From NCBI GenBank assembly GCA_030535455.1, contig JAUNJY010000016.1, positions 20,192-68,579 of the forward strand: 48,388 nt of DNA, written 5' to 3'. The notes below the pieces were generated by a model. That model had not been told where the DNA came from, ran no database searches, and saw only the letters and a program-made list of their open reading frames with translations. Below are positions 23,303-40,273 of the stretch, in pieces (the first letter of the stretch is position 1; each line of letters starts with the position of its first letter). The translations under genes and the position numbers were made by a program. This stretch comes from a bacterium. Lineage in GTDB: Bacteria; Bacillota; Clostridia; Lachnospirales; Lachnospiraceae.

Positions 23303-24919
23303 TTACTCGTCAAGCATTCGAATGATTTCCCTGATTGGCAGAATTGCCGATGGTGATACTGACAATTCATCTAATCCCATTTCTATAAACGTCTTGATTA
23401 GTGAGAGGTCTGCTCCTAATTCGCCACAAATTCCTACCCAGGCCCCTCCCTTATGTCCATTCTCAATTGTCATCTGAATCATACGAATGATTGCTGGATG
23501 GTGTGCATCGTAGATTGATTCTAATCTAGGATTTTGGCGATCGATAGCAAGTGTGTATTGTGTTAAATCATTAGTTCCGATACTAAAGAAATCACATTCT
23601 TTTGCTAATTCATCGCTGATCATTACTGCTGCAGGAGTTTCAATCATGATACCTACTTCAATCTCTTTATATTCAATCCCTTGCTCCCTAAGTTCCTCCT
23701 TACACTCTTGTACGATTGCTTTTGCCTCTCTTACTTCCTGTACGGAAATAATCATTGGAAACATTATGGAAATATTTCCGTAAGCACTTGCCCTTAGAAT
23801 TGCACGTATCTGGGTCTTAAAGATTTCCTTTTGTTCTAAACAGATTCGTATTGCTCGGTATCCCAATGCTGGATTTTCTTCTTGATCCAAATGAAAATAG
23901 TCGACTTTCTTATCGGCGCCAATATCCAGGGTTCGTATTATAACCTTCTTTCCTCCCATGGTTTCTGCGACTTCCTTATAGCTTAAAAACTGATCATTCT
24001 CAGTTGGGAAGGAATCTGTCCCAAGATAAAGAAACTCGCTTCGAAATAGGCCAATCCCTTCTGCATCATTAATTAAAGCAGAACCGGTATCAGAAACCTT
24101 TCCGATATTCGCATACAGATTAATTCGTTTTCCTGTTTTGGTCTCTGTCTTCTTTCCCTTTAGGGTTTCTAACAACTGTTCTCTTTTCTGTTCTGTTTCC
24201 AACATCTTTTGGGCCTGTAGTAATGTCTTTTCATCTGGATCAATGGTCAACGTGCCTTCGTATCCATTAATGATTGCCTTTTTTCCATCCCACTCTCTTT
24301 CTATATCCAAACCAAATAATGCCGGTACGTTCATACTCCTTGCAAGAATTGCAGTATGAGAATTGGATGACCCAACGCGGGTAACAAACCCTAAAAGACT
24401 AGAATGGTCCATCTGGATGGTCTCACTAGGAGTCAACTCGTTTGCTAATAAAATCACTGGTTCTGATAACTCAACCTGGTCGTTTGCTTCTCCTAATAAG
24501 ATTCGTATCACCCTTTCGGAGATATCCTTAACATCAATTGCCCTGGCTTTTAGGTACTCGTCCTCCATTTCAGCAAAGATCTTAGAAAAATTATCTCCTG
24601 TAACTGCTACCGCATATTCGGCATTTCTCTTATTGGCGCGAATAATTTCATAAATAGCATCACAGTAATCCATATCATCTAGCATGATTTGATGTACTGC
24701 GAAGATCTCGGCCTGTGTCTCTCCTACCTCTCTCTTTGCCTTCTCATAAAGTGTACCAAGTTGACTTTTTGCTTTCTCCTTTGCTCTCTCAAAGCGCATA
24801 ATCTCAGCTTCTGTATCTTCGATCTTTTTACATTTTACAGAACTCTCTTGCTTATCATAAAAGAAAATCGTTCCGACCGCGATTTTATGTACAATTGTGC
24901 TTGCCTTATATTGCTTCAT
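23303..24919 (-). CDS. ptsI: PTS Enzyme I (phosphoenolpyruvate-protein phosphotransferase)
   Basis: This enzyme takes phosphate from phosphoenolpyruvate and passes it to HPr, energising the PTS. The 538 residues are somewhat shorter than the usual 570-575. The N-terminal HPr-binding and phosphohistidine domains carry active-site H188 in GSSNSHTAILARS; the usual GGRTSH is altered to GSSNSH. The C-terminal TIM barrel has IGTNDLTQYTLAIDR and the GICGELGAD cysteine motif. The ATG at 24919 is preferred over a GTG at 24928 because GAGGTG lies just upstream. It follows the HPr gene by 15 bases. The divergence and position suggest an EI dedicated to the adjacent PTS locus rather than the only cellular copy. 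Confidence 0.93.
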   Translation of the reverse strand: MKQYKASTIVHKIAVGTIFFYDKQESSVKCKKIEDTEAEIMRFERAKEKAKSQLGTLYEKAKREVGETQAEIFAVHQIMLDDMDYCDAIYEIIRANKRNAEYAVAVTGDNFSKIFAEMEDEYLKARAIDVKDISERVIRILLGEANDQVELSEPVILLANELTPSETIQMDHSSLLGFVTRVGSSNSHTAILARSMNVPALFGLDIEREWDGKKAIINGYEGTLTIDPDEKTLLQAQKMLETEQKREQLLETLKGKKTETKTGKRINLYANIGKVSDTGSALINDAEGIGLFRSEFLYLGTDSFPTENDQFLSYKEVAETMGGKKVIIRTLDIGADKKVDYFHLDQEENPALGYRAIRICLEQKEIFKTQIRAILRASAYGNISIMFPMIISVQEVREAKAIVQECKEELREQGIEYKEIEVGIMIETPAAVMISDELAKECDFFSIGTNDLTQYTLAIDRQNPRLESIYDAHHPAIIRMIQMTIENGHKGGAWVGICGELGADLSLIKTFIEMGLDELSVSPSAILPIREIIRMLDE

Positions 24920-24934
24920 CTCAGTCACCTCATT

Positions 24935-25192
24935 TTATAAATTCTCTTTAAAAAATAGTTCTAACTCTTTACTAGCGATTTCCTCATCCTCGCCCTCTAC
25001 CGTTATTTTTACTTCTTCCCCATGTTTAATGCCTAATGACATAATTAAAAACAATTGATTTGCCTTTGCAGTTTTCTTTCCATTATCAATAATGATCTGA
25101 CTTGAATATTTTTTTGCCTCTTTTACTAATAAACCGGCTGGTCTGGCATGAAGCCCTATCTCATCTTGAATTACATATGTAAATGTTTTCAT
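24935..25192 (-). CDS. HPr-like phosphocarrier protein lacking the regulatory Ser46
   Basis: An 85-residue HPr. The phospho-accepting H15 is present in GLHARPAG, and MSLGIKHG marks the second conserved region. The regulatory Ser46, target of HPr kinase in Firmicutes, is Gln46 (ANQLFLIMSLGI). It can therefore transfer phosphate from EI but should not form the Ser-P co-repressor of CcpA. AAAGGAG precedes the ATG, which gives the normal HPr length; the longer open frame upstream has no family similarity. It forms an operon with the EI gene downstream and is separated from the regulator gene upstream by a terminator. Confidence 0.93.
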   Translation of the reverse strand: MKTFTYVIQDEIGLHARPAGLLVKEAKKYSSQIIIDNGKKTAKANQLFLIMSLGIKHGEEVKITVEGEDEEIASKELELFFKENL

Positions 25193-25319: not shown

Positions 25320-26888
25320 TTATATTTTCTGTTTACGATACTGTTGTGGCGATAAGCCGTACATCTCCTTAAACTTTTCACGAAACTGTTTATCATCGCG
25401 ATAGCCAATCGCCGCTGCCAACTCATAACTCTTCATATCTGTACTCATCAGTAACCGAAGGGCTTCCTTCATACGGACTTTTGTTAGATACGCCTTAAAG
25501 TTCTCTCCTGTTGCTTTTTTAAAAAATACACTCATATAGCTGGTATTCATTCCGATATAGCTCGCAATGTCTTCCAATGTTATATTTTCTGTAAAATGTT
25601 CGCCAATATAGCTCTTAATTCTTGCAATCTCCAACGTTTCTTTTCTTCCGCAAAGAAGACGGATCTTCAAGAAGATCTTCTCATAATACTCCCTAAAATA
25701 AGAACACATACTTTTGAACGTGGTCCTTCTTCGTACCTCTTCCAAGAATTCTGTTTGTTCTTCTATATAGCTCTCATCAAGCAATCCACAACTTTGTAAG
25801 GTAGAATAGATTTCACCTGCTAGTACGATGCAGCTGTTGACTACTGTGCTCTTATTTCCATAATGGATATTGCCAAGAAGAGTTACGCACTCTAATATGT
25901 TGTCGACAATCATTGGAGAATTGTAGTTTATACTCATATTTTCTGTTAACTTCTTTACCATTTCATCGTACTCTTCCAATGAATGAGTAAACTCTTTTGT
26001 GATTGCTTCGTAATCAATGTATAACTTCTCCTCAAAATAATAAAGTTCCAGTGCAAACTTAGCAGTCTTATACAGATTATATAGTTTATCATTCCAATTT
26101 TCCCATCCACCGACACCTGCAATCAATTCTACGGGATAATTTTTTCGAACTTCCTTTACTAACATAAGAACACGCTTCTTTAAGTCTATACGATCATTAT
26201 CTCCTGTAATCATACAATAACAGGCACTATAATCTCTTTCTATCATGCAGCCAAGCTTGCATTGTTCCAGATATTTTTCTATAAATTCATAGATATCAAA
26301 CGTTATGAGCCTTAAATTCTTCTTGGAATTTACAATCTCTTTTTTCCACAGAATCCGTATTCCAACTGCGGTTGCTCCTGCATATTCTATCGGAATTCCT
26401 GCCACTTGTCCAATGTCTGATAATGCGGTATCCTCCCTCTTTTTCTGTAGTATTTCTTGGGTTAACAGTTCAACTTTGCTATCTCGTTTCTTTAATCTAT
26501 GATAAGAATTTTCTGAAGCAATGCTCTCTGCCACATTGGTTAAAATCTTCGCTAGTTCTTCCGGACTGACGGGTTTTAACAGATAGTCTACCGCTCCATA
26601 ACGAACCGCCTCTCTTGCATAGGCAAACTCTTGATAGCCGCTTAATAAAATGGTCTTCACTTTTAATTCTCGTTGTTTAATTTCTTTTATTAGATCAATT
26701 CCTGAAAAGTTGGGCATAGCGATATCCGAAATGACAATATCCGGCTTTTTCTCCTCGATCAATTCTAATCCTTGTTTTCCATCTCTTGCCTCTGCTATAA
26801 TCTCAAAACCAAGCATCTCCCAGTCAATTAGTTTTTTCAGCCCGTATAAAATTACTGCCTCATCATCAATTAATAGTACTTTCAGCAT
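25320..26888 (-). CDS. YesN-like response regulator with AraC-type DNA-binding domain
   Basis: A 522-residue regulator. The receiver (1-120) has phospho-acceptor D55 in IVISDIAMPN and KPVSPEEL near 105. A long middle region (about 130-410) is typical of YesN-type regulators. The C-terminal about 100 residues hold two AraC HTH motifs: ITLEDIASYIGMNTSYMSVFFKK and SYELAAAIGYRDDKQFREKF. This class controls carbohydrate operons in Firmicutes. It overlaps the kinase gene by 23 bases, so the pair is translationally coupled. Likely targets are the upstream PTS and glycosidase genes; the palindrome at 40308-40332 is a candidate site. Confidence 0.94.
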   Translation of the reverse strand: MLKVLLIDDEAVILYGLKKLIDWEMLGFEIIAEARDGKQGLELIEEKKPDIVISDIAMPNFSGIDLIKEIKQRELKVKTILLSGYQEFAYAREAVRYGAVDYLLKPVSPEELAKILTNVAESIASENSYHRLKKRDSKVELLTQEILQKKREDTALSDIGQVAGIPIEYAGATAVGIRILWKKEIVNSKKNLRLITFDIYEFIEKYLEQCKLGCMIERDYSACYCMITGDNDRIDLKKRVLMLVKEVRKNYPVELIAGVGGWENWNDKLYNLYKTAKFALELYYFEEKLYIDYEAITKEFTHSLEEYDEMVKKLTENMSINYNSPMIVDNILECVTLLGNIHYGNKSTVVNSCIVLAGEIYSTLQSCGLLDESYIEEQTEFLEEVRRRTTFKSMCSYFREYYEKIFLKIRLLCGRKETLEIARIKSYIGEHFTENITLEDIASYIGMNTSYMSVFFKKATGENFKAYLTKVRMKEALRLLMSTDMKSYELAAAIGYRDDKQFREKFKEMYGLSPQQYRKQKI

Positions 26889-28668
26889 CCTGACTCCCCT
26901 TTTCGCTATATGGAATATGCAATATCACTATGGTACCTTCCCCTAAGGTACTATGGATTTCCATTCCATAATTAGGTCCATAATTCTTTTCAATCCGATC
27001 TCTGACATTACTGATACCGACACCCTTCGTCAGCCCATTATTTAATCGGAGTAAGGTCTCTTCACTCATACCTACTCCATCATCCATAACCATAAGTTCA
27101 AGCATATTATCGAGATGTTTTGCAGAAATCCATACGGTTCCACGTCCCGCTTTCTCCTTCAACCCATGTTTCACTGCATTTTCTACAATTGGCTGTAAAA
27201 CCAGCTTTAATATCTGTACCTGTTTTAACTTATCTGGAATGGTCATTTTTAGTTCAATTCTGCCTTCATATCGGGTACGGACTACCGTAAAATAGTCACT
27301 GATATTCTCAAGTTCCCGCTCTAATGGTACAAGATCTGCTTCCTTCCCCATAAGATAACGAAGCTGCCTTGCCAGACTTTCAATCATTTCAGCTGTTTGC
27401 CGGTCATCGTTTGTTACCGCGGTCATTCGGATGATATCCAGTGTATTATATAGGTAATGTGGATTAATCTGGCTCCTAAGGGCATTTAGCTCCGCTTCCC
27501 TTTGTTTGATCTCAGCTCCATATACCCGTTCAATATAGGTACTTAGCTGGCTAGCCATTTGATTTAATCCCTCTGCCAATACTCCGATCTCATCTTTTCT
27601 AGTTATTTCAACTCGGGTATCTAGTTCCCCTTTTTGGATTCGTTCCATCCCCATCTTTAATGTACGAATGGAAACGCTTAGTTGATCTGAAAAGAATAGA
27701 TAAATACTAAGCAAGATAACCATGCTTACAAAAAGCACTGTCATAACGTACTTTTCAGTCGTATTCATATTCTCTATAATGTCATCTTTATGTATTCGAA
27801 TAAGGCTGACCCACCCTCCCTGCGAATTCTTCTGATAAAGGTAGTAGGAATCCTTATCTTCTATGTATTGGTTCTCACCTGTATTAACATTATATAAAAT
27901 ATCCTTTTTTATTTCTGCAGACAACTCACTTTGATTTTCATTTTTATAAATCTGTTCCCCATCCTGATCAATAATATATAACCCACTTTTGCTACCTAGT
28001 TTAATCTCATAAAGCTGGTGAGAAATCACGTCTTTACTAATATCCAAGTAGATACTGCCCAAATAATGGTCAATTGTAGTACTACTGCTTACATCATATA
28101 AATTTCTCCTAACCGTTATCACGTCATCATTAATATTTAAAAAATAGGAATCGTGATGAATTGGAGATAAGGTGATTTGTCGTTCTTCTCTCCCTTTTCT
28201 AGTCTCTTTCGTAATCCAATGTTTCATATTCTCTTGATTTATAATCTTTCCAACAACCTCGCTGACACAGTGCAGAGTCCCATCAGCCTCAAGAAAACGA
28301 ATACTCTTAAGCCCCGTTATTTGACTGAACTTGGACAAGTAACGGCGTATTGTACTATTTTTTTCTTCTTGCGACATCTTCTTATCTAACAGAATATCAT
28401 CTAGATACTGTCCTTCCTCCACTTGCAGGCTATAAAGGGATACCGTCTCATTTTCCCATTCAGTCAGCATTGTATCTACGTATCCTCCTGCTGACTGCAA
28501 TATGGTTGCAGCATCATTAAGTAATATATTTTTTGTATTTTCAGAAAACTCCTGAAAGAAGAATCTTGCAATAAACATCAAGGGGAGGAGGCCAACTCCA
28601 ATATAAAGAACTGCTAATTTTGTAAAGATTCCAAATGGCGGTCTACTTCTTTTTCTCAAGTTTCTCAT
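26866..28668 (-). CDS. YesM-like membrane sensor histidine kinase
   Basis: A 600-residue kinase with transmembrane helices near 17-37 and 307-326. The about 265-residue extracytoplasmic domain between them looks Cache-like. HAMP follows (327-380), then the His_kinase domain with phospho-acceptor H404 in SQINPHYLYNTLDIIR, and an HATPase with NAVKHGL and GVGISNVRDRI. This is the YesM/LytS type that pairs with YesN regulators. The gene overlaps the solute-binding protein gene by 26 bases and the regulator gene by 23. The external domain probably contacts the binding protein, giving a three-component sensor. Confidence 0.94.
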   Translation of the reverse strand: MRNLRKRSRPPFGIFTKLAVLYIGVGLLPLMFIARFFFQEFSENTKNILLNDAATILQSAGGYVDTMLTEWENETVSLYSLQVEEGQYLDDILLDKKMSQEEKNSTIRRYLSKFSQITGLKSIRFLEADGTLHCVSEVVGKIINQENMKHWITKETRKGREERQITLSPIHHDSYFLNINDDVITVRRNLYDVSSSTTIDHYLGSIYLDISKDVISHQLYEIKLGSKSGLYIIDQDGEQIYKNENQSELSAEIKKDILYNVNTGENQYIEDKDSYYLYQKNSQGGWVSLIRIHKDDIIENMNTTEKYVMTVLFVSMVILLSIYLFFSDQLSVSIRTLKMGMERIQKGELDTRVEITRKDEIGVLAEGLNQMASQLSTYIERVYGAEIKQREAELNALRSQINPHYLYNTLDIIRMTAVTNDDRQTAEMIESLARQLRYLMGKEADLVPLERELENISDYFTVVRTRYEGRIELKMTIPDKLKQVQILKLVLQPIVENAVKHGLKEKAGRGTVWISAKHLDNMLELMVMDDGVGMSEETLLRLNNGLTKGVGISNVRDRIEKNYGPNYGMEIHSTLGEGTIVILHIPYSEKGSQDAESTIN

Positions 28669-29929
28669 CCCACTCCTTATCTAGATCACTCACAACGTCA
28701 TCCACATTTTTATCCTGAACGATCATCCTATATAAGATTTCACAGATATCACTTGAAACTCCCTCTGGAACCATCGGACTGTCCAGATTTTCTCCTCCCG
28801 ACGTTCCATATTCTCTTATTTGTTTCAGAATATCTTGCTGTATTGGAATTGTATCATAGGTCACCTCTTTCTTAAGCGTCGGTATCCCATTCATCTCTTG
28901 CAATACAGTACGGTATATTCCAGTACTGTAATAATACTTAAGGAACTCCGTTGCTGCCGTATACATGTCCTTATTCTCAGCACAAGACGAGGTTATGGAC
29001 CATCCCACATTTTCTACGGTATCAATGATTGGTTTCCCCTTTTCATCCGGTAAAAAGAACCATCCTAGTTCAAAGTCCTGGTCCGCTTTTTGAATTTGTG
29101 AAAACATCCAAGTACCGGAATACAGCATTGCTGCTCTTCCCTCTGTCAGCACTTCAATGGTCTGGGTATCTGTTGTGGTCTGATATCCCGGTTCAACGTA
29201 ACCAGACTCAAACAATTTTTTAAAATCACTGATTATCTTTCTTGGCTCTTTATCTGCCCAGTGTACCTGGCCTTCATTTCTTAGTGTAATCCATTGTGAG
29301 TAGTTTTCTTCTAAGTTCTTACTAAACAATACATTAATCCAGTTTTTCAAATGCCATCGATCCCCAGCACCTACTACCAGTGGACTGATATCCTTCGTTT
29401 TCAATACGTTGCACAATTGTAAAAATTCCTGATAGTTGGTTGGCTCCTTAAGTCCATATTGCTTAAATATTTTCTTATTGTAAATAATTCCTCTACATGT
29501 ATAAAAACGAGGAATGGAATATATTTGTCCATCAATCTCGTTTACAGGGTTTAATAAATCACTTACTTCTTTTGGAATCGGAACAATTTTCTTCGCCTGT
29601 GCATACAAATTTTGATTTCTCATTTCTACAATTCCATCAAAGTTTCCTAATGCTTCTTCTATTATAAGACTATTATTATAATCGGATCCTTCTAGCTCTA
29701 TCGAGGTCTTTACTTCCACATCTATTTCCGGATATTCCTGCATATATTGTGCTGCCACTTCTTTCACACAAGTCTCCCAGGATGCATCTCCTCCGGAAAT
29801 TAAGATGGGAAGTCTGATCTTTGGTTTTGAAATTTCAAGGTCTATCTGGTTTTTATGTACGAGTAGTAAAAATGCTGCCAACATAACTAAGACAATCATG
29901 GAAATACCGGCTATTCGTTTATTCTTCAT
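28643..29929 (-). CDS. Membrane-tethered extracellular solute-binding protein (sensor partner)
   Basis: A 428-residue family 1 sugar-binding protein. It has a single N-terminal hydrophobic helix (about 7-24) but no lipobox cysteine, so it is probably a signal-anchored rather than lipidated protein. Family features include NNSLIIEEALGNFDGIVEM, a GIIYNKKIFKQYGLKEPTNY segment and EGRAAMLYSGTWM. No ABC permease or ATPase lies nearby. Its stop overlaps the kinase start by 26 bases, so it is read as the ligand-binding part of a binding protein/YesM/YesN system. The ATG at 29929 follows AAAGGAG; an in-frame GTG 15 bases earlier lies inside that site's flank. Confidence 0.88.
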   Translation of the reverse strand: MKNKRIAGISMIVLVMLAAFLLLVHKNQIDLEISKPKIRLPILISGGDASWETCVKEVAAQYMQEYPEIDVEVKTSIELEGSDYNNSLIIEEALGNFDGIVEMRNQNLYAQAKKIVPIPKEVSDLLNPVNEIDGQIYSIPRFYTCRGIIYNKKIFKQYGLKEPTNYQEFLQLCNVLKTKDISPLVVGAGDRWHLKNWINVLFSKNLEENYSQWITLRNEGQVHWADKEPRKIISDFKKLFESGYVEPGYQTTTDTQTIEVLTEGRAAMLYSGTWMFSQIQKADQDFELGWFFLPDEKGKPIIDTVENVGWSITSSCAENKDMYTAATEFLKYYYSTGIYRTVLQEMNGIPTLKKEVTYDTIPIQQDILKQIREYGTSGGENLDSPMVPEGVSSDICEILYRMIVQDKNVDDVVSDLDKEWDEKLEKKK

Positions 29930-29968
29930 TTTTCTCCTTTCCACGAAAGTTTTTCTTAATTACTTATT

Positions 29969-30015: not shown

Positions 30016-31152
30016 CTACCATATAATAAAACTTTTTTCTAATAGACGTAATACTGCTTCTAAATAAAAATAGTCACCATAGATAATTGGCACATGACGA
30101 TCTTTCTCTCCCTCATAAGAAGCCGTTCCCATTTGTAGTATGGAATCATAGTCCGGTTCCCAATTACAATAGGATTTATCCAAAGCCTTTAGTATATTCA
30201 TTGCTCCCTCAAAATACAGGGATTTTTCATACTCCGGTACATATTCTGTTATCTCCAGCAAGCCACATGCAGCACAAGCAGATGCCGTGGTATCCCAATA
30301 AACAGGATCTTTTGGTGCTCTAAAGTCTACGACTGATACATAGCCCGTACGTGATACTTCCGCAAGGAAATAATGCGCTACCCTTTTTGCCGCCTCAAGA
30401 TATTCCTTCTTTTTCGTATAACGATAACTTAACGCAAATCCATAGATTGCCCAGGCTTGTCCGCGAGACCACGAAGAACCACTTCCGTATCCCTGTCCTC
30501 CAGGTGTTTTTAGGAGCTCTCCATTCTCAGGGTCTAGAACAATAATGTGATTACAGCTTCCATCTCCACGTACCGTATATTTTAGCAATGTATCTGCATG
30601 GTCCATTGCCATATATTGACATCTTGGATCTCCACTTACCTTGGATGCCCAATAGAGTAATGGAATGTTCATCATACTGTCAATGATCACCCAACCGGCA
30701 CGATCCTTATTCCAAGACCTTATATACTTCCCTCTCGGATTATATCTTCCTGCTAATAAATCGGCTGCATGCAGCCCTCTTGCCAAGGAACGCTCATTCT
30801 TTGTAAGCCGATAATCTGCCACTGCAGAATGCAGCCACATAAATCCTACATCATGATGTAATCCACGATACTGATCCAGTGCAGCGTCAAGTTTTCCTTC
30901 TACCGCTTGTGCTATCGTTTTATAATTCTCTTCCTTGGTTGCATGATACATCTGCCATAACATTCCCGGCCAAAACCCATTTGTCCACCAGGTAATATCT
31001 GTTTCTGCCTTATCCTCTAAATACCTTCCATTTTCCGCAATATAAGGTATTTTGTCTCCAATGCGTTTACTTTCTGCCAACAGCTTGTTCTGTAACTTTT
31101 CCCAAGTACAGCGTGTCCATTGTTTCGTACTTTCATCCATGTTGTAGTTCAT
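30016..31152 (-). CDS. GH88 unsaturated glucuronyl hydrolase-like enzyme
   Basis: A 378-residue cytoplasmic (alpha/alpha)6-barrel enzyme. GH88 enzymes remove the 4,5-unsaturated uronic acid left at the non-reducing end by polysaccharide lyases. The two key aspartates are present: D101 in HHDVGFMWL and D158 in IIDSMMN, matching D88 and D149 of the Bacillus enzyme. YGSGSSWSRGQAWAIYGF is the other strong family block. No signal peptide. The ATG at 31152 follows AAAGGGGG. Position next to EIIA of a mannose-family PTS matches streptococcal hyaluronan loci, where ugl and Aga-type PTS genes are clustered, suggesting PTS-imported unsaturated disaccharides as substrate. Confidence 0.9.
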   Translation of the reverse strand: MNYNMDESTKQWTRCTWEKLQNKLLAESKRIGDKIPYIAENGRYLEDKAETDITWWTNGFWPGMLWQMYHATKEENYKTIAQAVEGKLDAALDQYRGLHHDVGFMWLHSAVADYRLTKNERSLARGLHAADLLAGRYNPRGKYIRSWNKDRAGWVIIDSMMNIPLLYWASKVSGDPRCQYMAMDHADTLLKYTVRGDGSCNHIIVLDPENGELLKTPGGQGYGSGSSWSRGQAWAIYGFALSYRYTKKKEYLEAAKRVAHYFLAEVSRTGYVSVVDFRAPKDPVYWDTTASACAACGLLEITEYVPEYEKSLYFEGAMNILKALDKSYCNWEPDYDSILQMGTASYEGEKDRHVPIIYGDYFYLEAVLRLLEKSFIIW

Positions 31153-31179
31153 AATGTTCCCCCTTTCAATTATAAGCAT

Positions 31180-31602
31180 CTAGAAAAATTCCTCTTCTTC
31201 CTCATTTTCCTTTGTTTCTTCGAATTGCACCAGCTTTGTAATGTCTTTTGCTTCCTCAATATAGTTCCTTATTTCCTCCTTTGACAACTGTTCCTCATCC
31301 AGCACCAAACTGATTACCAGTGCCATGTTAAGTCCAGCAATCAAATTGACATTGGAATATTGGAGCAATGTCATCATGCCGTTGCACACACTTCCTCCCA
31401 ATAAATCAGCAATAATAATATATTGAACCGTTGGATTTTCTCTGATCTCTCTCTCTATTTCATCCACCATTGGCTGATAATGTTCTCCTGGCATCATTCC
31501 CATACTTGATAAGCAAGGCTGTTGTCCAATAATCATTTGAACCGAATGCATCATACCTTCTGCTGCTTTGCCATGTGATACTAAAATAATTCTTTTCTTC
31601 AT
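31180..31602 (-). CDS. PTS mannose-family EIIA component
   Basis: A 140-residue EIIA of the mannose/fructose/sorbose family. H10 in LVSHGKAAEGM is the phosphorylation site that receives phosphate from HPr; DLLGGSVCN is the second conserved block. The C-terminus ends in a run of acidic residues. The ATG at 31602 is favoured because AGAGG lies 9 bases upstream and would be too close to the ATG at 31611. It is split from EIIB/C/D by the GH43, GH36 and unknown membrane genes but is the only EIIA in the locus. Confidence 0.92.
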   Translation of the reverse strand: MKKRIILVSHGKAAEGMMHSVQMIIGQQPCLSSMGMMPGEHYQPMVDEIEREIRENPTVQYIIIADLLGGSVCNGMMTLLQYSNVNLIAGLNMALVISLVLDEEQLSKEEIRNYIEEAKDITKLVQFEETKENEEEEEFF

Positions 31603-31627
31603 CAATTCCATCCTCTCTTTACTCTAC

Positions 31628-33235
31628 TTAAAACTCTTGATAGATAAAATCATCAAAGTCTGCATAGCTGGTTTGACAATATAAATCCTGTGCGCAAATT
31701 CCTACCATGCTTCCTGTGTACACCAGTCTTTCTTTCCTTATATAATCGTCCGATAGGTGTTCTGCATTCAGTTCCTTTCCAAGGTACTTTTCTTCCTCTT
31801 CTCCAAATGCATAATAAAACTGTAACTTCTCTCTCCATACCTCAACTGATAAATGAATCTTTGTCACTTCATTTGGAATAGGAATACGGTTTTTACCTAA
31901 AAGCATATCGGTATTTCCCAATTCACATACCACCACATCTAAAATCCTTGTATCTAGTTCTTCATCATAAGATACATAGGCATAATAATAATTTCTTGTA
32001 TTGTAGAAACAGGTGAGACCTGCCATCTGCTGATAATGGATCGGCCGAAATTCCAATGTTGTCTCTGCTCGAAACTGGACTGATTGCCAACGTCTGGCTA
32101 CCATTGTCTGACTATGAACGGAAGCAATACTCTGCTGTCCATATAGTCTAAGGTATCCCGGCCGTTCTGTTAATGACATATGATCATCTAGCGGTTCTCT
32201 AAGGCACTGAAAATACTCGGGCAACTTTGCTTCCTCAAAATTAGTCGCTGTCGAATGATCTAGGCTCTGTTGAACTTTTTCTTTTCCCAAAGGGGGCTCC
32301 ACCTCGATGGGTGGTACGCAAACTACTCTTCTTTCATCTAGCAAGCCATCTGCAAGTCTTGGCCATCCGTCTACCCATTCAATTTTTGCAAGTCCGGTCT
32401 CTCTTCCAAGCATACAGTTTCCTCTCTGATACGTTAATGGTCTTGCACACAAAAAGGAAATATACCATTGATCCTTGGTTGCCTGAAGAAAGCTTGCATG
32501 TCCACACTTTTGCAAGTAAGACTTTGGGGCATACTTTGTAGAAATTAAGGGACTGTAGGGAGAAACCTCATAAGGACCGTCTATCTTTTTTGCCCTGCAT
32601 ACCACACTGGCATGACTATATCCGGTTCCACCTTCTGCACAAAGCAAGTAATACCAGCCATCCTTCTTTATAATCTGAGGGCCTTCCGTGGTTCCCCACT
32701 CCGTTCCATGAAAGATTATCTTCTGTTGTCCTAACAGTTTTCCGTTCTTAAGGTCTACTTCCTGAATGGCTACTCCATTAAAATTAGGTTTATATGGACG
32801 GTAATCCCACATCATATTCATAATATATTTCTTTCCATCATCATCGTGAAAAAGAGCAGGATCAAATCCTGAACTGTTTATGTACATTGGATTAGACCAC
32901 TCTCCATCAATCCGGTCACAGGTCATTACATAGTTCAAGGTATCCTTAAATAACTGATCTGTCTTGATATCTGTAATCATTAAATAAAACGTTCCATGGT
33001 CAAAAGAAAGATGGGGAGCCCAAATACCTCCTGAATTATAATCTCCTTTCAGGTTGATCTGTTCCCTTCTGTTTAATGGTTCTGCAACAACATGCCAATT
33101 TACTAAGTCTTTGGAGTGATAAATTCTAACTCCCGGCCACCACTCAAACGTCGATGTTGCAATATAGTAATCCTCTCCTACCACACACACGCTGGCATCT
33201 GGTGCGAATCCTCGAATAACTGGGTTTTTAATCAT
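31628..33235 (-). CDS. GH43 beta-xylosidase / alpha-L-arabinofuranosidase-like enzyme
   Basis: A 535-residue five-bladed beta-propeller glycosidase. The catalytic set is visible: base D13 in GFAPDAS, D125 in NSSGFDPALFHDDDG and acid E184 in GTTEGPQI. IATSTFEWWPGVRIYHSKDL is the XynB-like N-terminal block. The last about 200 residues form a beta-sandwich that closes the active site in this subgroup. No signal peptide, so it acts in the cytoplasm on imported oligosaccharides. The subgroup suggests beta-xylosidase, but arabinofuranosidase or mixed activity cannot be excluded. It lies 3 bases from the GH36 stop and is clearly in the same operon. Confidence 0.92.
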   Translation of the reverse strand: MIKNPVIRGFAPDASVCVVGEDYYIATSTFEWWPGVRIYHSKDLVNWHVVAEPLNRREQINLKGDYNSGGIWAPHLSFDHGTFYLMITDIKTDQLFKDTLNYVMTCDRIDGEWSNPMYINSSGFDPALFHDDDGKKYIMNMMWDYRPYKPNFNGVAIQEVDLKNGKLLGQQKIIFHGTEWGTTEGPQIIKKDGWYYLLCAEGGTGYSHASVVCRAKKIDGPYEVSPYSPLISTKYAPKSYLQKCGHASFLQATKDQWYISFLCARPLTYQRGNCMLGRETGLAKIEWVDGWPRLADGLLDERRVVCVPPIEVEPPLGKEKVQQSLDHSTATNFEEAKLPEYFQCLREPLDDHMSLTERPGYLRLYGQQSIASVHSQTMVARRWQSVQFRAETTLEFRPIHYQQMAGLTCFYNTRNYYYAYVSYDEELDTRILDVVVCELGNTDMLLGKNRIPIPNEVTKIHLSVEVWREKLQFYYAFGEEEEKYLGKELNAEHLSDDYIRKERLVYTGSMVGICAQDLYCQTSYADFDDFIYQEF

Positions 33236-33238: not shown

Positions 33239-35464
33239 CTACTCCTCTCTGGTTAATTGCCATTGTCTTGCATAAAAATCCTCGGACACTTTTGGAAGTG
33301 CTAATCCAATTTCCATTAATGCACTTCCTTCTCTTGTTTCTTTACCGTTATCAACAATATAATGAATACCCTGCTGTAATCCTTGTAACTTTAGTCTTTT
33401 AGGCACCGTATTCGGTTTTGCAAGAATTTGAACATAGCTGACATAAGCTCTGCTTCCATCTTCCGAACAATACATCCAGGCTCGCTCATTTTCGCTATGA
33501 ACCAGTCGGTACAAGGTTCCATTTTGAATGGTATGCCGCATCTCTTTATATGCTGCGATTTGTCTTTTGATTGCAGTTTTCTCCTCATTAGTCGTTTTAA
33601 GAAGATCAATCTCATAGCCCAGGTTTCCTTGCATTGCCACGAGTCCTCTTGTACCTAATGACGTCTTTCTTCCCACCTGATGATTTGGACTTTCCGAAAC
33701 ATGACAACCCATTGCTATTGCCGGATAAACATATGATGTGCCAAACTGAATATCTAACCGCTCTATGGCATCCGTATCATCACTGGTCCAAATCTGTGGC
33801 ATATAATATAGAATTCCAGCATCAAAGCGACCTCCGCCACCGGCACATCCTTCCCATAAAACATCCGGATACCTCCTCGTCAATACCTCCAGTATTCGAT
33901 ACAGTCCTAACATGTAACGGTGGCTCACTTCCTTTTGCCGGTCGTTTGGCAAAGCAAATGATCCTAGATCCGTTATATTTCGATTCATATCCCATTTCAC
34001 ATAGGAAATATTGGCGCTGTCTAAAACTTTACTTACAGCATTAATAATATAATCCTGCACCTCTCGCCTTGAAAGGTCCAGTACATACTGATACCTGGCT
34101 AACTGTGGCTCATGGTCTTTCACTCGAATAATCCATTCCGGATGGCTCTCATATAACCTGCTATCCTTTGATACCATTTCTGGTTCAAACCATAATCCAA
34201 ACTGCATGCCCAGTGCATTCACCTGCTTCGCCAGTTCATTAAGGCTACCTCCCATTTTTTTCTCATTCGGTATCCAGTCGCCTAGAGAACCCTTCTCGCT
34301 ATTTCGTTTTCCATACCATCCATCATCCAATACAAATAACTCTACTCCCAAGTTCGCTGCTTCTTTGGCAAGCACAAGGAGCCTTTCTTTATCAAAGTCG
34401 AAATAAGCTGCCTCCCAGCTATTAAACAATACCGGCCGTACTTGTTTTGCATACTTACTTTGTATTAAGCAGTCCCGATACAATCTATGATAGATTCTTG
34501 ACATCTCTCCAAATCCAGCTTTTGTATGTACCATCACCACTTCAGGACTTTGAAATACTTCGTCAGCCTCCAGTTTCCAGTTAAAATCAAATGCATTAAG
34601 TCCCATCATAAGACGGGTATTCTGATGCATATCAATTTCAACCCCAGCCTCAAAATTGCCACTGTACACAAAGTTCATAGAGTACACATTGCCATGTTCC
34701 TCATCGGCAGACGGTTCTGCCAGTGCTAGAAAAGGATTTTGTCCATGCCCGCTAGCGCTGCGTTTGCTGTCTAATACAAACATGCCTTGCCTTATCGGCT
34801 GCCTGCTGAAATGACATTCCCTTCCCCATGCACCGGTTAGTGTCACTAAATCAAAGTTACAATCTAAAAAGCTATAACACGAAGACATCAATCGCTCAAT
34901 CTGTATCACTTTTGTTCCAATATTTTTTACTGCTACACTTTCCGTTATGGCATCCCACTCTTCAAATACCGCAAATGTAAGAACTACTTCTACCTTCATG
35001 GCTACATCTCTCAACGTAAGCTCCAATACCTGACACTCCTCACTAACTACAGTCGGAAGCCCCTCTAGTTTTCTTTTGCCCTTATAGCTCTTACATGACT
35101 GATACCGTAAATCAGTAATTCTTGATCCATCCTCATATTCAAACATAAATGCCGGTGTTCGCATGTCTGGGTTTCCATACGCCGGATAGGTTAGTGGCTG
35201 TTGTTCTAACTTAAAGTCCTTAATTCCATCCGTATCACTCAGATAGCTGGCACGTTTAATTTCTTTGACAATATAGGAAAACGAATGATCTAGTACTCTC
35301 CCTCCCCAATACAAACAAACCATATGTCCACTGTCTAATACATGCAAGATCAGTGAGGTATGCCTTGTCTGAAGATGAAATGTGCGTCTGCTCTCGATTA
35401 TCTCAATCATGCCACGCTTGCTCCTCTCTCTCATCGTATCTATACAATCTATCGTTTTGGTCAT
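33239..35464 (-). CDS. GH36 alpha-galactosidase
   Basis: A 741-residue enzyme of the usual GH36 length. An N-terminal beta-supersandwich (about 1-330) precedes the TIM barrel with nucleophile D492 in YVKWDMNR and acid/base D562 in WTSDDTDA; LDDGWYGKR, GLWFEPEM and EGCAGGGGRFD are further signatures. No signal peptide. It would release alpha-linked galactose from imported oligosaccharides. The start ATG overlaps the preceding stop (ATGA), implying coupling to the membrane-anchored protein gene. Confidence 0.95.
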   Translation of the reverse strand: MTKTIDCIDTMRERSKRGMIEIIESRRTFHLQTRHTSLILHVLDSGHMVCLYWGGRVLDHSFSYIVKEIKRASYLSDTDGIKDFKLEQQPLTYPAYGNPDMRTPAFMFEYEDGSRITDLRYQSCKSYKGKRKLEGLPTVVSEECQVLELTLRDVAMKVEVVLTFAVFEEWDAITESVAVKNIGTKVIQIERLMSSCYSFLDCNFDLVTLTGAWGRECHFSRQPIRQGMFVLDSKRSASGHGQNPFLALAEPSADEEHGNVYSMNFVYSGNFEAGVEIDMHQNTRLMMGLNAFDFNWKLEADEVFQSPEVVMVHTKAGFGEMSRIYHRLYRDCLIQSKYAKQVRPVLFNSWEAAYFDFDKERLLVLAKEAANLGVELFVLDDGWYGKRNSEKGSLGDWIPNEKKMGGSLNELAKQVNALGMQFGLWFEPEMVSKDSRLYESHPEWIIRVKDHEPQLARYQYVLDLSRREVQDYIINAVSKVLDSANISYVKWDMNRNITDLGSFALPNDRQKEVSHRYMLGLYRILEVLTRRYPDVLWEGCAGGGGRFDAGILYYMPQIWTSDDTDAIERLDIQFGTSYVYPAIAMGCHVSESPNHQVGRKTSLGTRGLVAMQGNLGYEIDLLKTTNEEKTAIKRQIAAYKEMRHTIQNGTLYRLVHSENERAWMYCSEDGSRAYVSYVQILAKPNTVPKRLKLQGLQQGIHYIVDNGKETREGSALMEIGLALPKVSEDFYARQWQLTREE

Positions 35465-36090: not shown

Positions 36091-36113
36091 ATGCTCTTCC
36101 TCCCTTATAAACT

Positions 36114-36148: not shown

Positions 36149-36157
36149 TTCTATGTA

Positions 36158-37027
36158 TTAACCGCAGATACCTAATACGGTCAGGACAACAGATAATATA
36201 AACATCACTAATAATACGCGGATTGGCTTATTCTTTTTACGTAAGTAGAAAAATGCTGCCATGGTGATGCCAAGTGGTAACATACCTGGCATAATCTGAT
36301 CTAAGACATTCTGAAGTTTAAATGTAGTTCCGCTAAACTCTGCAACATATGTTGTTTTAAAGCTTACATACTGTGCGGTCATTGCTCCTGTCATAATCAA
36401 TCCAAGAACCGTAAATCCTTTTGTAAATGCTTTAATCATTCCGGTTTCTAACATCTGTGCAATGTATGTACTTCCTAATTTCAAACCAAACATTGCTCCA
36501 AAGTAACGGATCAATACATTTGGAATATTGTAAATAAGAGCGAATAAAATAGGTCCAAGCCAAGAGCCACTCTGAGAAAATCCTAGTGCAATACCGGTTG
36601 CAACGATTCTTATTGCACCTGAGTAAATCGAATCACCAATTCCTGCAAATGGTCCCATCAATGCAACCTTGATTGACTCAATGGACGCATCATTAAATGG
36701 CTTTCCTGCCTCCAATGCTTCCTTACGTTCCTGTTCCATACTGATTGTTATGGCAAAGATAAATGGCGACATACCAGGAGTCGTATTAAAGAAATCCTGA
36801 TGTCTTGACATTGCTTCATAAAACTCGTCCGTCTCTTTTCCATAGATTTTTTCCAAATAAGGAATCATGATCCAGCCAAATGTAATACCTTGTTGTTTTG
36901 TGTAGGAGGTACAAAACATTAACCACATAGTTCTCCAGAAGATAGACCATGTAAGCTTAATCTGTTCTTTTGATAACCTTCTTTTTGATGAAAATACATC
37001 ATTCGTCTTTACCACTGTATTAGTCAT
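36158..37027 (-). CDS. PTS mannose-family EIID component
   Basis: A 289-residue membrane component of the mannose-family permease. The N-terminal soluble part has LTWSIFWRTMWLMFCTSYTKQQG and FNTTPGMSPFIFAI, followed by GPFAGIGDSIYSGAIR, all EIID hallmarks, and C-terminal hydrophobic helices ending LTVLGICG. With EIIC it forms the sugar channel. The start overlaps EIIC by 8 bases. In this family substrates range over mannose, glucose, fructose, amino sugars and uronic disaccharides, so the sequence alone does not fix specificity. Confidence 0.94.
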   Translation of the reverse strand: MTNTVVKTNDVFSSKRRLSKEQIKLTWSIFWRTMWLMFCTSYTKQQGITFGWIMIPYLEKIYGKETDEFYEAMSRHQDFFNTTPGMSPFIFAITISMEQERKEALEAGKPFNDASIESIKVALMGPFAGIGDSIYSGAIRIVATGIALGFSQSGSWLGPILFALIYNIPNVLIRYFGAMFGLKLGSTYIAQMLETGMIKAFTKGFTVLGLIMTGAMTAQYVSFKTTYVAEFSGTTFKLQNVLDQIMPGMLPLGITMAAFFYLRKKNKPIRVLLVMFILSVVLTVLGICG

Positions 37028-37886
37028 TGAAAAAGTCCTCGCTTTCCTCTAGATTTGCGTTTGTCTCACTATGGCCTGCCACTAGTTTTTTCGTCTTTTG
37101 AATCTCACTAAAAATAATCAACGCTGCAATGGCTGCACCGATAAATGAAATCTGAACAAGGGATAAGATCTTGGTCTGGCTGCTTGCCAACGTTACCACA
37201 TTGTCTGCATAAGTAGCACCAGTCACATTGTTATAGAAGAAGAAGGCACCCAAGCCAAATCCTAAGAAATAGTAAGGACAGATTTCCTTTTCCCAAAGTG
37301 ATTTCAGTAACAGAGCCATACCTAATCCAGGAAGCATGGTGGACGCAACCGTCATGGATTTTTGTATCCAGTCTGGAATTGCATTAACAAAAGCTCCAAC
37401 TGCATCTGTTCCTGCCCAGATACAGATAAATCCTAATAAAAAGTAGCAGATATGGAAGCCACAAAATTGTATGATCCATAAGTGTTTAAATCCTTTAATA
37501 TTTTTGTTTGCGATCAAACTTTCAAACTTTGGAACAAGGGAAGTTACTACGATCTTCATGGAAGAATACAATAAAGTTCCCAGCGCTGCCAACGGTAACG
37601 CCAATGTAATGGCCGTAGCCAGATCCTTTCCAAGCAAGATGGAAAATGCTGCTCCAAAGATGGATCCCAGTGTAAAATCAGTTGGCATTACGCCGCCTAA
37701 ACTAACATTTCCTAAGAATACAAGTTCCAGCTCTGCTGCTAAAATAATTCCTTCTTTTGGATGTCCCAACAATGCTCCCAAAATAGCCACACAAAATATT
37801 GGTCTTTGGAACATCGTATTGCCATACCAGTCAAAGAACTTGGTCAACATAAGTACAATACCAACGATTAATGCCTCTTTTAACAT
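37020..37886 (-). CDS. PTS mannose-family EIIC component
   Basis: A 288-residue polytopic membrane protein with about eight hydrophobic stretches. Family signatures include RPIFCVAILGALLGHPKEGIILAAELEL and LGNVSLGGVMPTDFTLGSI. It forms the translocation path together with EIID. It overlaps the EIIB gene by 7 bases and the EIID gene by 8, so B, C and D are translationally coupled. The acidic C-terminal tail (LEESEDFFND) is cytoplasmic. Confidence 0.94.
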   Translation of the reverse strand: MLKEALIVGIVLMLTKFFDWYGNTMFQRPIFCVAILGALLGHPKEGIILAAELELVFLGNVSLGGVMPTDFTLGSIFGAAFSILLGKDLATAITLALPLAALGTLLYSSMKIVVTSLVPKFESLIANKNIKGFKHLWIIQFCGFHICYFLLGFICIWAGTDAVGAFVNAIPDWIQKSMTVASTMLPGLGMALLLKSLWEKEICPYYFLGFGLGAFFFYNNVTGATYADNVVTLASSQTKILSLVQISFIGAAIAALIIFSEIQKTKKLVAGHSETNANLEESEDFFND

Positions 37887-38383
37887 CTCACTTTACCCCC
37901 CATTAGTTTAATGAAATCAATACGGCTGTCACTTGGAAGTGGCTGATGGATCACTTCAATTCCTAAGTCATGAATTTCAGCTACCACCCTTTCATCTTCC
38001 TTCGTCACATAAACTGACTCTGACACTTTTTTCTTAGTAGATAAGCCGCCACCGCCAATACGCCCATAATTTGCAATGTTTAATACTGGCTTTTCACTAA
38101 TCCCCTTGGCTACTTCTAACAAATCTGCGGGAGTATTGGAAATTACAAGAATACGTAAATTCTTTGATCTTGGATCATTAATAATTCCAATTACTTTTTC
38201 CAATGGCAAGATTGCCGCTTTTACTCCGGCTGGAGCAGCCATCTTTAAGGCACTTACCTGAATGCTATCGGCAGCAATTGTATCACTTGCCACGATTATA
38301 CGATCCACCCGTAACTCCTTTGACCACATCACAGCCACCTGTCCATGAATCAATCTGTCATCCACACGCATCATCTCAATCAT
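37880..38383 (-). CDS. PTS mannose-family EIIB component
   Basis: A 167-residue cytoplasmic phosphocarrier with phospho-H13 in RVDDRLIHGQV, and YGRIGGG in the middle, typical of EIIB of the mannose family. It passes phosphate from EIIA to the sugar during transport. The ATG at 38383 gives the standard N-terminus and follows AAGGAG by 9 bases; the 41 extra codons upstream have no similarity. It is preceded by manA with a 138-base gap, in which no strong terminator was seen. Confidence 0.95.
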   Translation of the reverse strand: MIEMMRVDDRLIHGQVAVMWSKELRVDRIIVASDTIAADSIQVSALKMAAPAGVKAAILPLEKVIGIINDPRSKNLRILVISNTPADLLEVAKGISEKPVLNIANYGRIGGGGLSTKKKVSESVYVTKEDERVVAEIHDLGIEVIHQPLPSDSRIDFIKLMGGKVRC

Positions 38384-38521
38384 ATCTTCTCTCTCCTTCT
38401 CTTGTTTAACTCTGAACCCATTGTAATTCGTGAAAATATAACAAGATATTCTTTTCCCCAAACGCCTAAAAAAAGCACCGCTTAATATAAAAAAATACCT
38501 TTTCATTTTCTTATTCTCGTA

Positions 38522-40273
38522 TTAAAGTTCTCTTCCATACACCTCAATTTGAGTAAGTGCCGGAAACGGAGAGGGATCTTCTGATTTTTTCAGATTGCCT
38601 AATCGAATCCAGGTAATATTCTTTTTATGAATCGTAAAGGAATGCGCCGTATCCGTTTTTTCCATCGTAAGAGGCTCCATTGTCCCATCTGAAAACCAAA
38701 GCACCGCACTGGTCCACCAGTTATCATGTGGAAAATCTGCTCTCGTCCATAGTACGATGTTATCAAATTCTACAGGTCTTCCAAACTCCAATAATAGCTC
38801 GGCATCTTCCTGTTTATTAATTCCCCAGGATTCATAAGGCCAAGAACCATGAGAGTGGTTGGCAATAATGCCATCAATCGCATTTCTTGCCGCAAAAACA
38901 GACTCTCCCCTTGTCTCAACGTTGGCGGAGGCATGTGGATAACATCCCCTCTCTCCATGTTGATCCATTACATTCTTGGCAAGATTTCTATAAATGCCAA
39001 TTTCATAAACATTCGCTTTTCGACAAGTCAAATAATGTCGTTCTCCTGTAAATGCCTTCTTGTTATAGCTTTTCTTCTTTTCTCCAAATGGTATTTCAAA
39101 CTCTACCTCTTCTTTTGTCATGTACACCAAAGCTTCATCCAGCGTGTCATCGATACGAACAATATAGTACTGATTTACTTCTGGTACATGAATGGTAATG
39201 GTATCTCCGATCTCATATACATCCTCGAAAGAAAGCACTGCAATGTCATCCTTCTGTATAACTGCCTTTGTTCGTCCTACCCAGTCCTTTACCGTGATAC
39301 CGATTTGACCTTTTTCAATTTTTTTCTCTTTCTGTACCGGTGTAGAACAAAAAATTGTGAAGTCTCCTGTCAACTCACATACCCCATAATCTGCTGGTAC
39401 AATAAGATGTTGTCCCTTCGTCACACTTTTTGTACCAATTTTACCGCTTCCCTCTAAAACACTAATATTTGCAAATGTTGTGCCGAATTTATGTTTCCAA
39501 GTTCCATGCACTTCATAGCGGTCTACCGTATAATACGAACATGTTTGTAAATGTTCCTTGGTCACCTCTTCCGACCTTAGATACGCTCTTTGTGACGGTG
39601 CTTCTATAAATGGCGTTTCTATTACGTTTAAAAAATCCTTTATATGTAATGGGCGTAGCTCCCCATGATATTTTCTTTTATAATCATAAACCCGATACGT
39701 TATATTGCTTGACTGCTGGGTTTCGAGCAATAAAGTTCCCCCTTTAATTGCATGTATACATCCAGGCTCAATCTGAAAAAAGTCCCCTTTCTTGATTGGT
39801 ACCTCTCGAATTAATTCTTTCCATCTTTCTTCCTGAATCAGTTTCTCTAATTCTTCTTTCTCTTTTGCATAGTGCCCAATTACAATCGTTGCACCCTCTT
39901 TACAGTCAAGGATATACCAGCATTCTGTCTTACCCAATTCACCATTCTCATGTTCAGATGCATAGGCATCATTGGGATGAACCTGAATACTTAGGTCCTC
40001 TTTTGCATCAATCAACTTCACCAAAAGTGGAAACTGCTCTCCCATGCAATGCTCCTGATTTCCAAACAGTTCCGGATATTGCTCCCATAGCTTCTGTAGT
40101 GTCATCCCTGCAAATTCACCAGAAACCACTGTGCAGTCTCCGTCTTTATGTCCACTAACTGCCCAGCATTCACCGACATTTCCCGATGACAGCTCATATC
40201 CAAACTCCTTTAATCTCTCCCCTCCCCATATGGTTTCTTTTAAAATAGGTTCTAAAAATATAAGTTCTGACAT
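38522..40273 (-). CDS. manA: Mannose-6-phosphate isomerase fused to a discoidin/CBM32-like domain
   Basis: Residues about 1-310 are a class I phosphomannose isomerase: ILKETIWGG, the zinc-site segment LSIQVHPNDAYA, KTECWYIL and EPGCIHAIKGG. This converts mannose-6-phosphate to fructose-6-phosphate. The usual enzyme ends near 310-320, but here 583 residues are encoded. The extra part has a linker barrel (about 320-430) and a C-terminal about 140-residue domain resembling F5/8-type-C/CBM32 (AARNAIDG, LLLEFGRPVEFDNIVLWTR, SAVLWFSDG, ending ALTQIEVYG). No signal peptide, so the carbohydrate-binding-like domain is cytoplasmic. AAAGGTGGAG precedes the ATG at 40273. It is the first gene of the PTS/glycosidase run. 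Confidence 0.9.
   Translation of the reverse strand: MSELIFLEPILKETIWGGERLKEFGYELSSGNVGECWAVSGHKDGDCTVVSGEFAGMTLQKLWEQYPELFGNQEHCMGEQFPLLVKLIDAKEDLSIQVHPNDAYASEHENGELGKTECWYILDCKEGATIVIGHYAKEKEELEKLIQEERWKELIREVPIKKGDFFQIEPGCIHAIKGGTLLLETQQSSNITYRVYDYKRKYHGELRPLHIKDFLNVIETPFIEAPSQRAYLRSEEVTKEHLQTCSYYTVDRYEVHGTWKHKFGTTFANISVLEGSGKIGTKSVTKGQHLIVPADYGVCELTGDFTIFCSTPVQKEKKIEKGQIGITVKDWVGRTKAVIQKDDIAVLSFEDVYEIGDTITIHVPEVNQYYIVRIDDTLDEALVYMTKEEVEFEIPFGEKKKSYNKKAFTGERHYLTCRKANVYEIGIYRNLAKNVMDQHGERGCYPHASANVETRGESVFAARNAIDGIIANHSHGSWPYESWGINKQEDAELLLEFGRPVEFDNIVLWTRADFPHDNWWTSAVLWFSDGTMEPLTMEKTDTAHSFTIHKKNITWIRLGNLKKSEDPSPFPALTQIEVYGREL

Follow-up and report, generated by a model that had tools for sequence, protein, structure and literature searches.

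In the genome of a Lachnospiraceae bacterium, a run of 14 genes is probably a single operon by which small hexose sugars capped with a uronic acid are sensed, taken up and broken down. The run occupies positions 23303-40273 of a window of 48,388 bp, by which we mean the whole stretch analyzed (assembly GCA_030535455.1, contig JAUNJY010000016.1, positions 20,192 to 68,579). It encodes EIIA, EIIB, EIIC and EIID of a mannose-family phosphotransferase system (PTS) together with HPr and Enzyme I (EI), three glycoside hydrolases (GH88, GH43, and GH36), a phosphomannose isomerase (PMI) fused to a second domain, and a solute-binding protein (SBP) accompanied by a YesM-type kinase and a YesN-type regulator. 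This reading builds on the observed gene content, motifs, recurrent co-occurrence and tree clustering, on invariant residues of GH88, and on precedents from the literature. As judged from these data, the locus is a variant of a PTS-GH88 type that recurs in several families of Bacillota. The window forms one end of its contig, and the assembly comprises 4.35 Mb in 126 contigs (93.6% complete, 7.7% contaminated).

Organization of the gene cluster

All 14 genes lie on the minus strand, and neighbors either overlap by at most 26 bp or are spaced by at most 127 bp. In the direction of transcription they code for the PMI fusion, EIIB, EIIC, EIID, a 218-aa protein, GH36, and GH43, followed by EIIA, GH88, SBP, YesM, YesN, HPr, and EI. 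Because of the tight spacing on one strand, a single transcript is plausible. In the locus region, the numbers of promoter-like sites (58 versus a shuffled mean of 55.9) and of terminator-like sites (14 versus a shuffled mean of 11.0) were near chance expectation, and an Rfam scan gave no match at gathering score. Position 40273 is an ATG of the PMI frame, whose longest open reading frame (ORF) reaches 40294 and starts with TTG.

All four EII components of a mannose-family PTS are present, with the active-site His in EIIA and EIIB. The SBP gene adjoins those of the kinase and the regulator, and a Pfam scan detected no ABC permease gene in the 14-gene run, an arrangement that matches a three-component sensor; the SBP is probably its membrane-anchored sensor subunit. 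GH43 keeps the Asp/Asp/Glu active-site residues. In the N-terminal regions of the three glycosidases, the best 17-residue hydrophobicity means were only -0.13, 0.82, and 1.11, whereas YesM, the 218-aa protein and SBP reached 2.4-2.9, a comparison of means that is distinct from a signal-peptide prediction. The 218-aa protein, which possibly is a PTS accessory protein, follows EIID in relatives too and has homologs in 5 of the 13 PTS-linked loci described below.

An earlier interpretation from the nucleotide sequence, hereafter the sequence-only reading, had proposed a strand-consistent 17-kb run containing three glycosidases without signal peptides, a fused PMI, and a trio of binding protein, YesM and YesN. 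The strand, the coordinates, the active-site motifs and the absence of strongly hydrophobic N-terminal stretches in the glycosidases agree with this description; the gene at 35461-36117, coding for the 218-aa protein, had been overlooked.

GH88 residues and phylogeny

GH88 was assigned by its Pfam domain, which scored over the cut-off, and by similarity to the solved unsaturated glucuronyl hydrolases 1vd5 and 2zzr (39% and 36% identity). We take 1vd5 to come from Bacillus GL1 and 2zzr to be streptococcal, the near-equal 3anj being named gbs1889. Residues H109, D110, D167, H211, Q229, R239, and W243 were invariant in 80/80 alignment rows, both solved proteins included. D110 and D167 presumably represent the catalytic Asp pair, which we assume to be Asp88 and Asp149 in the Bacillus GL1 enzyme.

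The GH88 tree comprised 80 rows, namely the window, 1vd5, 2zzr and 77 of 80 related loci from public genomes (see below); L113, L133, and L146 were left out, as were L001 and L002, two further GH88 loci of the host genome. The 16 PTS-linked rows (15 loci plus the window) required 2 label changes on this tree versus a shuffled mean of 14.8, and this GH88 group may have a single origin. The two solved proteins were set off from the other 78 rows by a branch with 100/100 support and 2.37 changes per column, both being long rows whose placement is unsure. With the same reservation, the window GH88 does not share a clade with 2zzr, and the tie between PTS and GH88 looks either independent of that in streptococci or separated from it long ago.

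This deep branch and the identities of 39% and 36% speak against the view that the locus is a streptococcal-type glycosaminoglycan (GAG) locus for hyaluronan or chondroitin disaccharides to which further glycosidases were added, a view we regard as very unlikely. Such loci do have the core of mannose-family EIIABCD and GH88 in common with the window, and the related locus L077 contains a sulfatase. Furthermore, the related locus L078 has the order IIA-GH88-IIB-IIC-IID, which we take to be that of the streptococcal cluster. L078 and L075 also carry an isomerase of RpiB/LacAB type like DhuI, a member of the RpiB/LacA/LacB family (excerpt of PMC12838403). However, the host genome gave no match to Hepar_II_III_C, no role on hyaluronan is generally known for GH43 and GH36, and EI and HPr are encoded inside the window locus but outside the streptococcal one, whose cluster includes only the EII genes of the PTS according to the excerpt of PMC6837340. 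The sequence-only reading had likewise held the streptococcal locus to be different, in line with the distance of the GH88 proteins on the tree.

Related loci in other genomes

To place the locus among its relatives, we searched the genome collection with a profile of three GH88 proteins, which gave 224 candidate stretches; a relative was encoded in 187 of these. We retained the 80 best loci, with weaker relatives outside the sample, and scored them for homologs of the window genes and of representative neighbors at E ≤ 1e-10. Since the loci were collected through GH88, PTS loci without GH88 also fall outside this sample. Thirteen of these 80 closest GH88 loci had three or all four of the EII genes and were compared with the remaining 67, which include the PTS loci L081 and L086 at contig ends; as related loci are not independent samples, the Fisher p-values given here are descriptive. 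The 13 include loci of Mediterraneibacter, Clostridium puniceum, Thomasclavelia saccharogumia, Enterococcus florum, Vagococcus allomyrinae, Tetragenococcus, and Lactiplantibacillus daoliensis. The supposed uniqueness of the gene combination, by which the sequence-only reading had set the locus apart, was rejected by this recurrence.

Several genes were strongly associated with the PTS-linked loci, first of all those for GH43 (12/13 versus 5/67, p = 1.2e-9), a HAD phosphatase (11/13 versus 2/67, p = 5.5e-10), GH36 (8/13 versus 1/67, p = 3.7e-7), PMI_C, the domain fused to PMI (10/13 versus 11/67, p = 3.8e-5), and a LevR-type regulator (5/13 versus 0/67, p = 5.4e-5). Smaller differences were found for SBP (6/13 versus 7/67, p = 0.005), GH28 (3/13 versus 1/67, p = 0.013), DUF2264 (5/13 versus 6/67, p = 0.014), PMI (2/13 versus 1/67, p = 0.067), and YesN (7/13 versus 27/67, p = 0.38). 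The picture was the same for loci of at least 18 kb (13 versus 51), with GH43 in 12 versus 2, the HAD phosphatase in 11 versus 1, GH36 in 8 versus 0, and PMI_C in 10 versus 8. EI and HPr were found in 0/13 and 0/67 loci at this threshold, at which a divergent HPr could escape, the 13 loci covering about 19-21 kb each. A KduD-type reductase was encoded in 6 of the 13, each time with an adjoining isomerase gene, which was KduI in four cases and of the RpiB/LacAB plus DUF3666 type in L078 and L075. Gene order varied among lineages.

In the window's own family, EIIC matches with E ≤ 1e-30 were present in 10 of 299 genomes searched, the window's genome included. In stretches of 3.9-37 kb around the other matches, GH88 was found only in genome G111 (78% identity) and beside one of two copies in G253 (39% identity), with which we equate the contig of L077. 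Of the EIIC-GH88-YesN synteny that the sequence-only reading had put up for comparison, the PTS-GH88 part recurs in several families; genome G183 has EII genes without GH88 within 18 kb, and the type of regulator varies.

Two observations concern individual relatives. L086 and L087 belong to one Tetragenococcus pullicola metagenome-assembled genome, which thus has two PTS-GH88-GH36-GH43 copies on different contigs, one of them at a contig end. Beside the Clostridium puniceum locus, L073:17259-20069 encodes a protein of 936 aa that has a putative Ig domain and matches F5/8C and Alginate_lyase below the cut-offs; it had no match among solved structures and, judged by its domains, might be a lyase acting on the same polymer.

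Regulatory genes

SBP, YesM, and YesN occurred together in 6 of the 13 related loci. Five others (L087, L090, L097, L101, and L128) encode a LevR-type protein with sigma-54 activator, PRD, and EIIA-man domains, L087 having YesM/YesN-like matches in addition, and L073 and L075 showed neither a LevR-type protein nor SBP/YesMN within the stretch examined. The catabolic module might thus keep its genes while the mode of induction changes. A YesMN system is named for L. plantarum in an excerpt of PMC8704671, which does not mention GH88.

Proposed pathway and alternative explanations

According to the preferred reading of an operon for uronic acid-capped sugars, the anchored SBP would capture the sugar outside the cell and signal through YesM and YesN. 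EIIC and EIID, together with EIIA, EIIB and the operon's own HPr and EI, would import a di- or short oligosaccharide and phosphorylate a hexose at C6. The streptococcal PTS imports the unsaturated hyaluronan disaccharide, and PTSs phosphorylate C6, C6-blocked sugars being unsuitable (excerpt of PMC6837340). Unsaturated uronate, the cap for GH88, and xylose or arabinose, the caps for GH43, lack a free C6-OH, so the hexose is the expected site of the phosphate. Once the sugar is in the cytoplasm, GH88 would take off the 4,5-unsaturated uronate, GH43 xylose or arabinose, and GH36 alpha-galactose. The uronate would then pass through KduI, a KduD-like reductase, a KdgK-like kinase and KdgA, i.e., the 2-keto-3-deoxygluconate route, the genes of which are located on another contig. 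If the hexose 6-phosphate is that of mannose, PMI would convert it to fructose 6-phosphate, which would enter glycolysis. Mannose is a guess that would suit PMI. A glucuronomannan-type gum or a fungal glucuronoxylomannan would fit as source but is not singled out.

Several findings weigh against this reading. Among the window ORFs scanned, no enzyme creating unsaturated ends was recognized, and the window lacks the HAD phosphatase and DUF2264 present in relatives; the search of the host genome did not find DUF2264 either. A linked PMI in only 2 of the 13 relatives means that mannose is weakly supported. L077 has the PTS, GH88, the trio and a sulfatase but lacks GH43, GH36, and PMI_C, and in G183 GH36 directly precedes IIA-IIB-IIC-IID with no GH88 within 18 kb. 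These two cases count against one fixed substrate and show that the module is not uniform.

The G183 arrangement, along with the variable gene order, would also fit a loose assembly in which the PTS imports neutral alpha-galactosyl or xylosyl sugars and GH88 and PMI serve other ends. We consider this quite improbable, as loci that combine GH88 with the PTS and GH43 are spread over Lachnospiraceae, Clostridiaceae, Coprobacillaceae, Enterococcaceae, and Lactobacillaceae, although the search proceeded via GH88.

The imported sugar could possibly be a saturated uronosyl sugar, since relatives of the locus carry a probable dehydratase. Saturated aldobiouronic acids (glucuronic acid-hexose) would then be dehydrated inside the cell before GH88 acts, in relatives by DUF2264 and in the window by another protein, possibly PMI_C. 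A related mechanism has been described for an ex-GH154 protein, which dehydrates a terminal glucuronate and thereby primes saturated glucuronic acid for GH88 (excerpt of PMC12269599). Including L081 and L086, DUF2264 is present in 6/15 loci, among them L090 of Enterococcus florum and L075 of Thomasclavelia saccharogumia. Residues 127-337 of the L075 DUF2264 protein (594 aa) match 9o4u (E = 3e-11) and 9nwf (E = 2.1e-10), whose entry names are 'beta-D-glucuronic acid dehydratase' and 'glucuronate dehydratase', and also 8oi4; from these matches the DUF2264 proteins are probable dehydratases. However, DUF2264 resembles the solved enzymes only modestly (E = 1.6e-14 to 2.1e-10), and with no DUF2264 found in the host genome search this route is inapplicable as such to the window. 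In addition, 4 of the 13 loci have both PMI_C and DUF2264, which argues against a simple replacement. We judge import of saturated sugars followed by dehydration inside the cell to be unlikely. As for the acidic oligosaccharides that the sequence-only reading had suggested as substrate, the GH88 residues, the KduI cluster and the linked isomerase-reductase pairs support a uronate-handling PTS locus; the sugar may arrive already unsaturated or, given the probable dehydratase of the relatives, still saturated.

The domain fused to PMI

Residues 11-315 of the PMI fusion protein match the solved PMI 1qwr (E = 3.8e-79) and TIGR00218 (170.6 bits, cut-off 116.2). The C-terminal 265 aa (residues 326-590, positions 38522-39319), here called PMI_C, are DUF7402-like, and a structure prediction for them shows a discoidin-like C-terminal domain. 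PMI_C is a stand-alone family in many genomes of the window's family, so that the fusion postulated before is real. Matches to the PMI fusion protein as query (E ≤ 1e-40) occurred in 178 of 299 genomes, mostly to the PMI part or PMI_C alone; among the matches listed, only those of the window and G119 spanned nearly its full length. The fusion is present in two Mediterraneibacter loci as well. An alignment of 18 PMI_C members has 35 invariant columns, several of which are His, Glu, Arg, Asp, or Trp.

Genes for GH88, KduI, DUF2264, or a KduD-type reductase (at least 60% identity) were located near PMI_C in 16 of 25 loci and absent in 9, compared with 1 of 19 control stretches (Fisher p = 1e-4); the 25 loci were hand-picked, mostly as best-scoring, the control stretches were not random, and the sole positive one, L060, itself neighbors a PMI_C locus. 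In 4 of the 25 loci, genes for PMI and a ROK-type kinase adjoin PMI_C instead of or besides uronate genes. From this neighborhood, a role of PMI_C in uronate metabolism is likely. The more specific idea that PMI_C acts in unsaturated-uronate metabolism as an unrecognized cytoplasmic enzyme or effector, and that a phosphorylated uronosyl-hexose supplied by the PTS undergoes dehydration within the cell before GH88 cleaves it, is tentative and rather doubtful. Its co-occurrence with DUF2264 has weakened PMI_C as a candidate for the window's substitute dehydratase, and an excerpt of a paper on an ulvan dehydratase (PMC8511951) offered no testable link to it.

Uronate catabolism, PTS proteins and lyases in the host genome

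In the host genome (G000), contig C29 contains a cluster for a KDPG/KHG aldolase, a pfkB kinase, KduI, and a short-chain KduD-like reductase. This KduI is the sole match in the assembly; it is 68% and the reductase 84% identical to the counterparts in L079. Owing to this cluster, the unsaturated uronate released by GH88 would have an outlet, although outside the operon.

The sequence-only reading had also spoken of a complete private PTS. EI and HPr do lie inside the locus, but the genome has four EI genes, each beside an HPr gene, so that the window EI was rejected as the genome's only one. The pair on contig C41 adjoins a fused PTS EII with EIIA, EIIB, and EIIC domains, GH32 and a pfkB kinase; the window is thus not the only sugar locus of the genome with EI and HPr genes. 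There (L167, G000:C41, 3935-11274), the genes for the fused EII, GH32, the pfkB kinase, a LacI-like regulator (by its N-terminus), HPr, and EI form a row, probably an operon for sucrose uptake by a PTS that brings its own general PTS proteins.

The window HPr (24935-25192) was compared with those on G000 contigs C125, C41, C67, C30, and C124 (L154-L159). All four EI-adjacent HPrs keep the active His and have Gln, Arg or Lys (Gln in the window HPr) at the position that we take to be Ser46. The C30 copy has Ser at this position and Glu in place of the active His, i.e., it is Crh-like, and an HPr kinase gene is located about 4 kb away. In the C124 copy, both the active His and the Ser are present. 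From these residues, phosphotransfer and catabolite control may be split between different HPr proteins.

A search for lyases elsewhere in the genome, as formerly recommended, yielded matches of the pectate-lyase type only, on two contigs, and none to Alginate_lyase in addition to the missing Hepar_II_III_C. PL8 (PF02278) had no match in the host genome, nor did the control genomes give one.

Relation to known systems

The window locus resembles the GAG locus of S. agalactiae in the position of PTS EIIABCD genes beside GH88 and in the isomerase/reductase route for the released uronate (excerpt of PMC6837340). It differs by EI and HPr in the locus, the distant GH88, the additional GH43, GH36, PMI fusion and SBP/YesMN, and by the lack of a matching lyase among those searched. 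PUL25 of Bacteroides caccae, with BcGDH (ex-GH154) and GH88 (excerpt of PMC12269599), finds a parallel in the dehydratase-like protein beside GH88 in related loci, but import here would be by a PTS and the window has no dehydratase-like gene. As in CuaDSR of Ruminiclostridium cellulolyticum (excerpt of PMC10384115), an SBP gene adjoins a two-component pair and would act as sensor subunit, whereas the window trio sits in a PTS operon rather than with an ABC importer. The 'sugar island' of Lactobacillus pentosus KCA1 combines predicted GH88 and GH28, the latter present also in related loci; the excerpt of PMC3602190 mentions no PTS beside them. Searches of the openly licensed literature brought up no paper on this locus type and no match for the term DUF2264.

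If the preferred reading is true, uptake of uronic acid sugars by mannose-family PTSs would be a wider strategy of Bacillota and not a tissue-degrading speciality of streptococci. The cap-removing enzymes would then act inside the cell, under two exchangeable regulators, an extracellular SBP with YesMN or a LevR-type protein with PTS-linked domains. It also raises the testable questions of whether the dehydratase-GH88 pairing reported in 2025 operates on PTS-phosphorylated sugars and what function the PMI-fused domain family has.

Gene assignments and neighboring genes

Table 1. Genes of the cluster in order of transcription, with supporting matches and motifs.
Assigned product	Position in window	Strand	Evidence
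Class I mannose-6-phosphate isomerase fused to discoidin/DUF7402-like part	38522..40273	-	TIGR00218, 1qwr, DUF7402
PTS EIIB, mannose/sorbose family	37880..38506	-	PF03830 1.8e-39; active-site motif DDRLIHGQ
PTS EIIC	37020..37886	-	PF03609 2.1e-51; best NCBIfam model AgaW, under cut-off
PTS EIID	36158..37027	-	PF03613 7.5e-85
218-aa protein, one N-terminal hydrophobic segment	35461..36117	-	no Pfam/NCBIfam match
GH36, alpha-galactosidase-like	33239..35464	-	PF02065 3.7e-159; AgaB 4fnq E 3.5e-231; WDMN motif
GH43, beta-xylosidase type, with C-terminal GH43_C2	31628..33235	-	PF04616/PF17851; 1y7b beta-xylosidase E 3e-160
PTS EIIA, mannose family	31180..31611	-	PF03610 1.4e-15; SHG motif; AgaF best NCBIfam, under cut-off
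GH88, unsaturated uronyl hydrolase-type	30016..31179	-	PF07470 44.5 bits (cut-off 26.6); 1vd5 E 2.7e-67
SBP	28643..29944	-	PF01547 5.5e-23; hydrophobic N-terminus, no lipobox Cys
YesM-type histidine kinase	26866..28668	-	HAMP, His_kinase, HATPase; dCache_1 under cut-off
YesN-type response regulator	25320..26888	-	receiver and AraC HTH
HPr	24935..25192	-	PF00381; HARP motif; active His kept
EI	23303..24928	-	TIGR01417 597 bits (cut-off 341.7); SNSHTAI motif

Upstream of the operon, five small minus-strand ORFs without a Pfam match are located at 41057-44582 (41057-41560, 41729-42034, 42656-43135, 43196-43684, and 44031-44582). At 16826-22060, a gene for a LuxR-type regulator, which weakly matches a STAND NTPase, lies in a row with those for two ABC-2 membrane proteins and an ABC ATPase. 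A GH5 protein with Big_2 and CBM2 domains is encoded at 13823-16222, on the strand of the operon and about 7 kb downstream of it, with other genes between.

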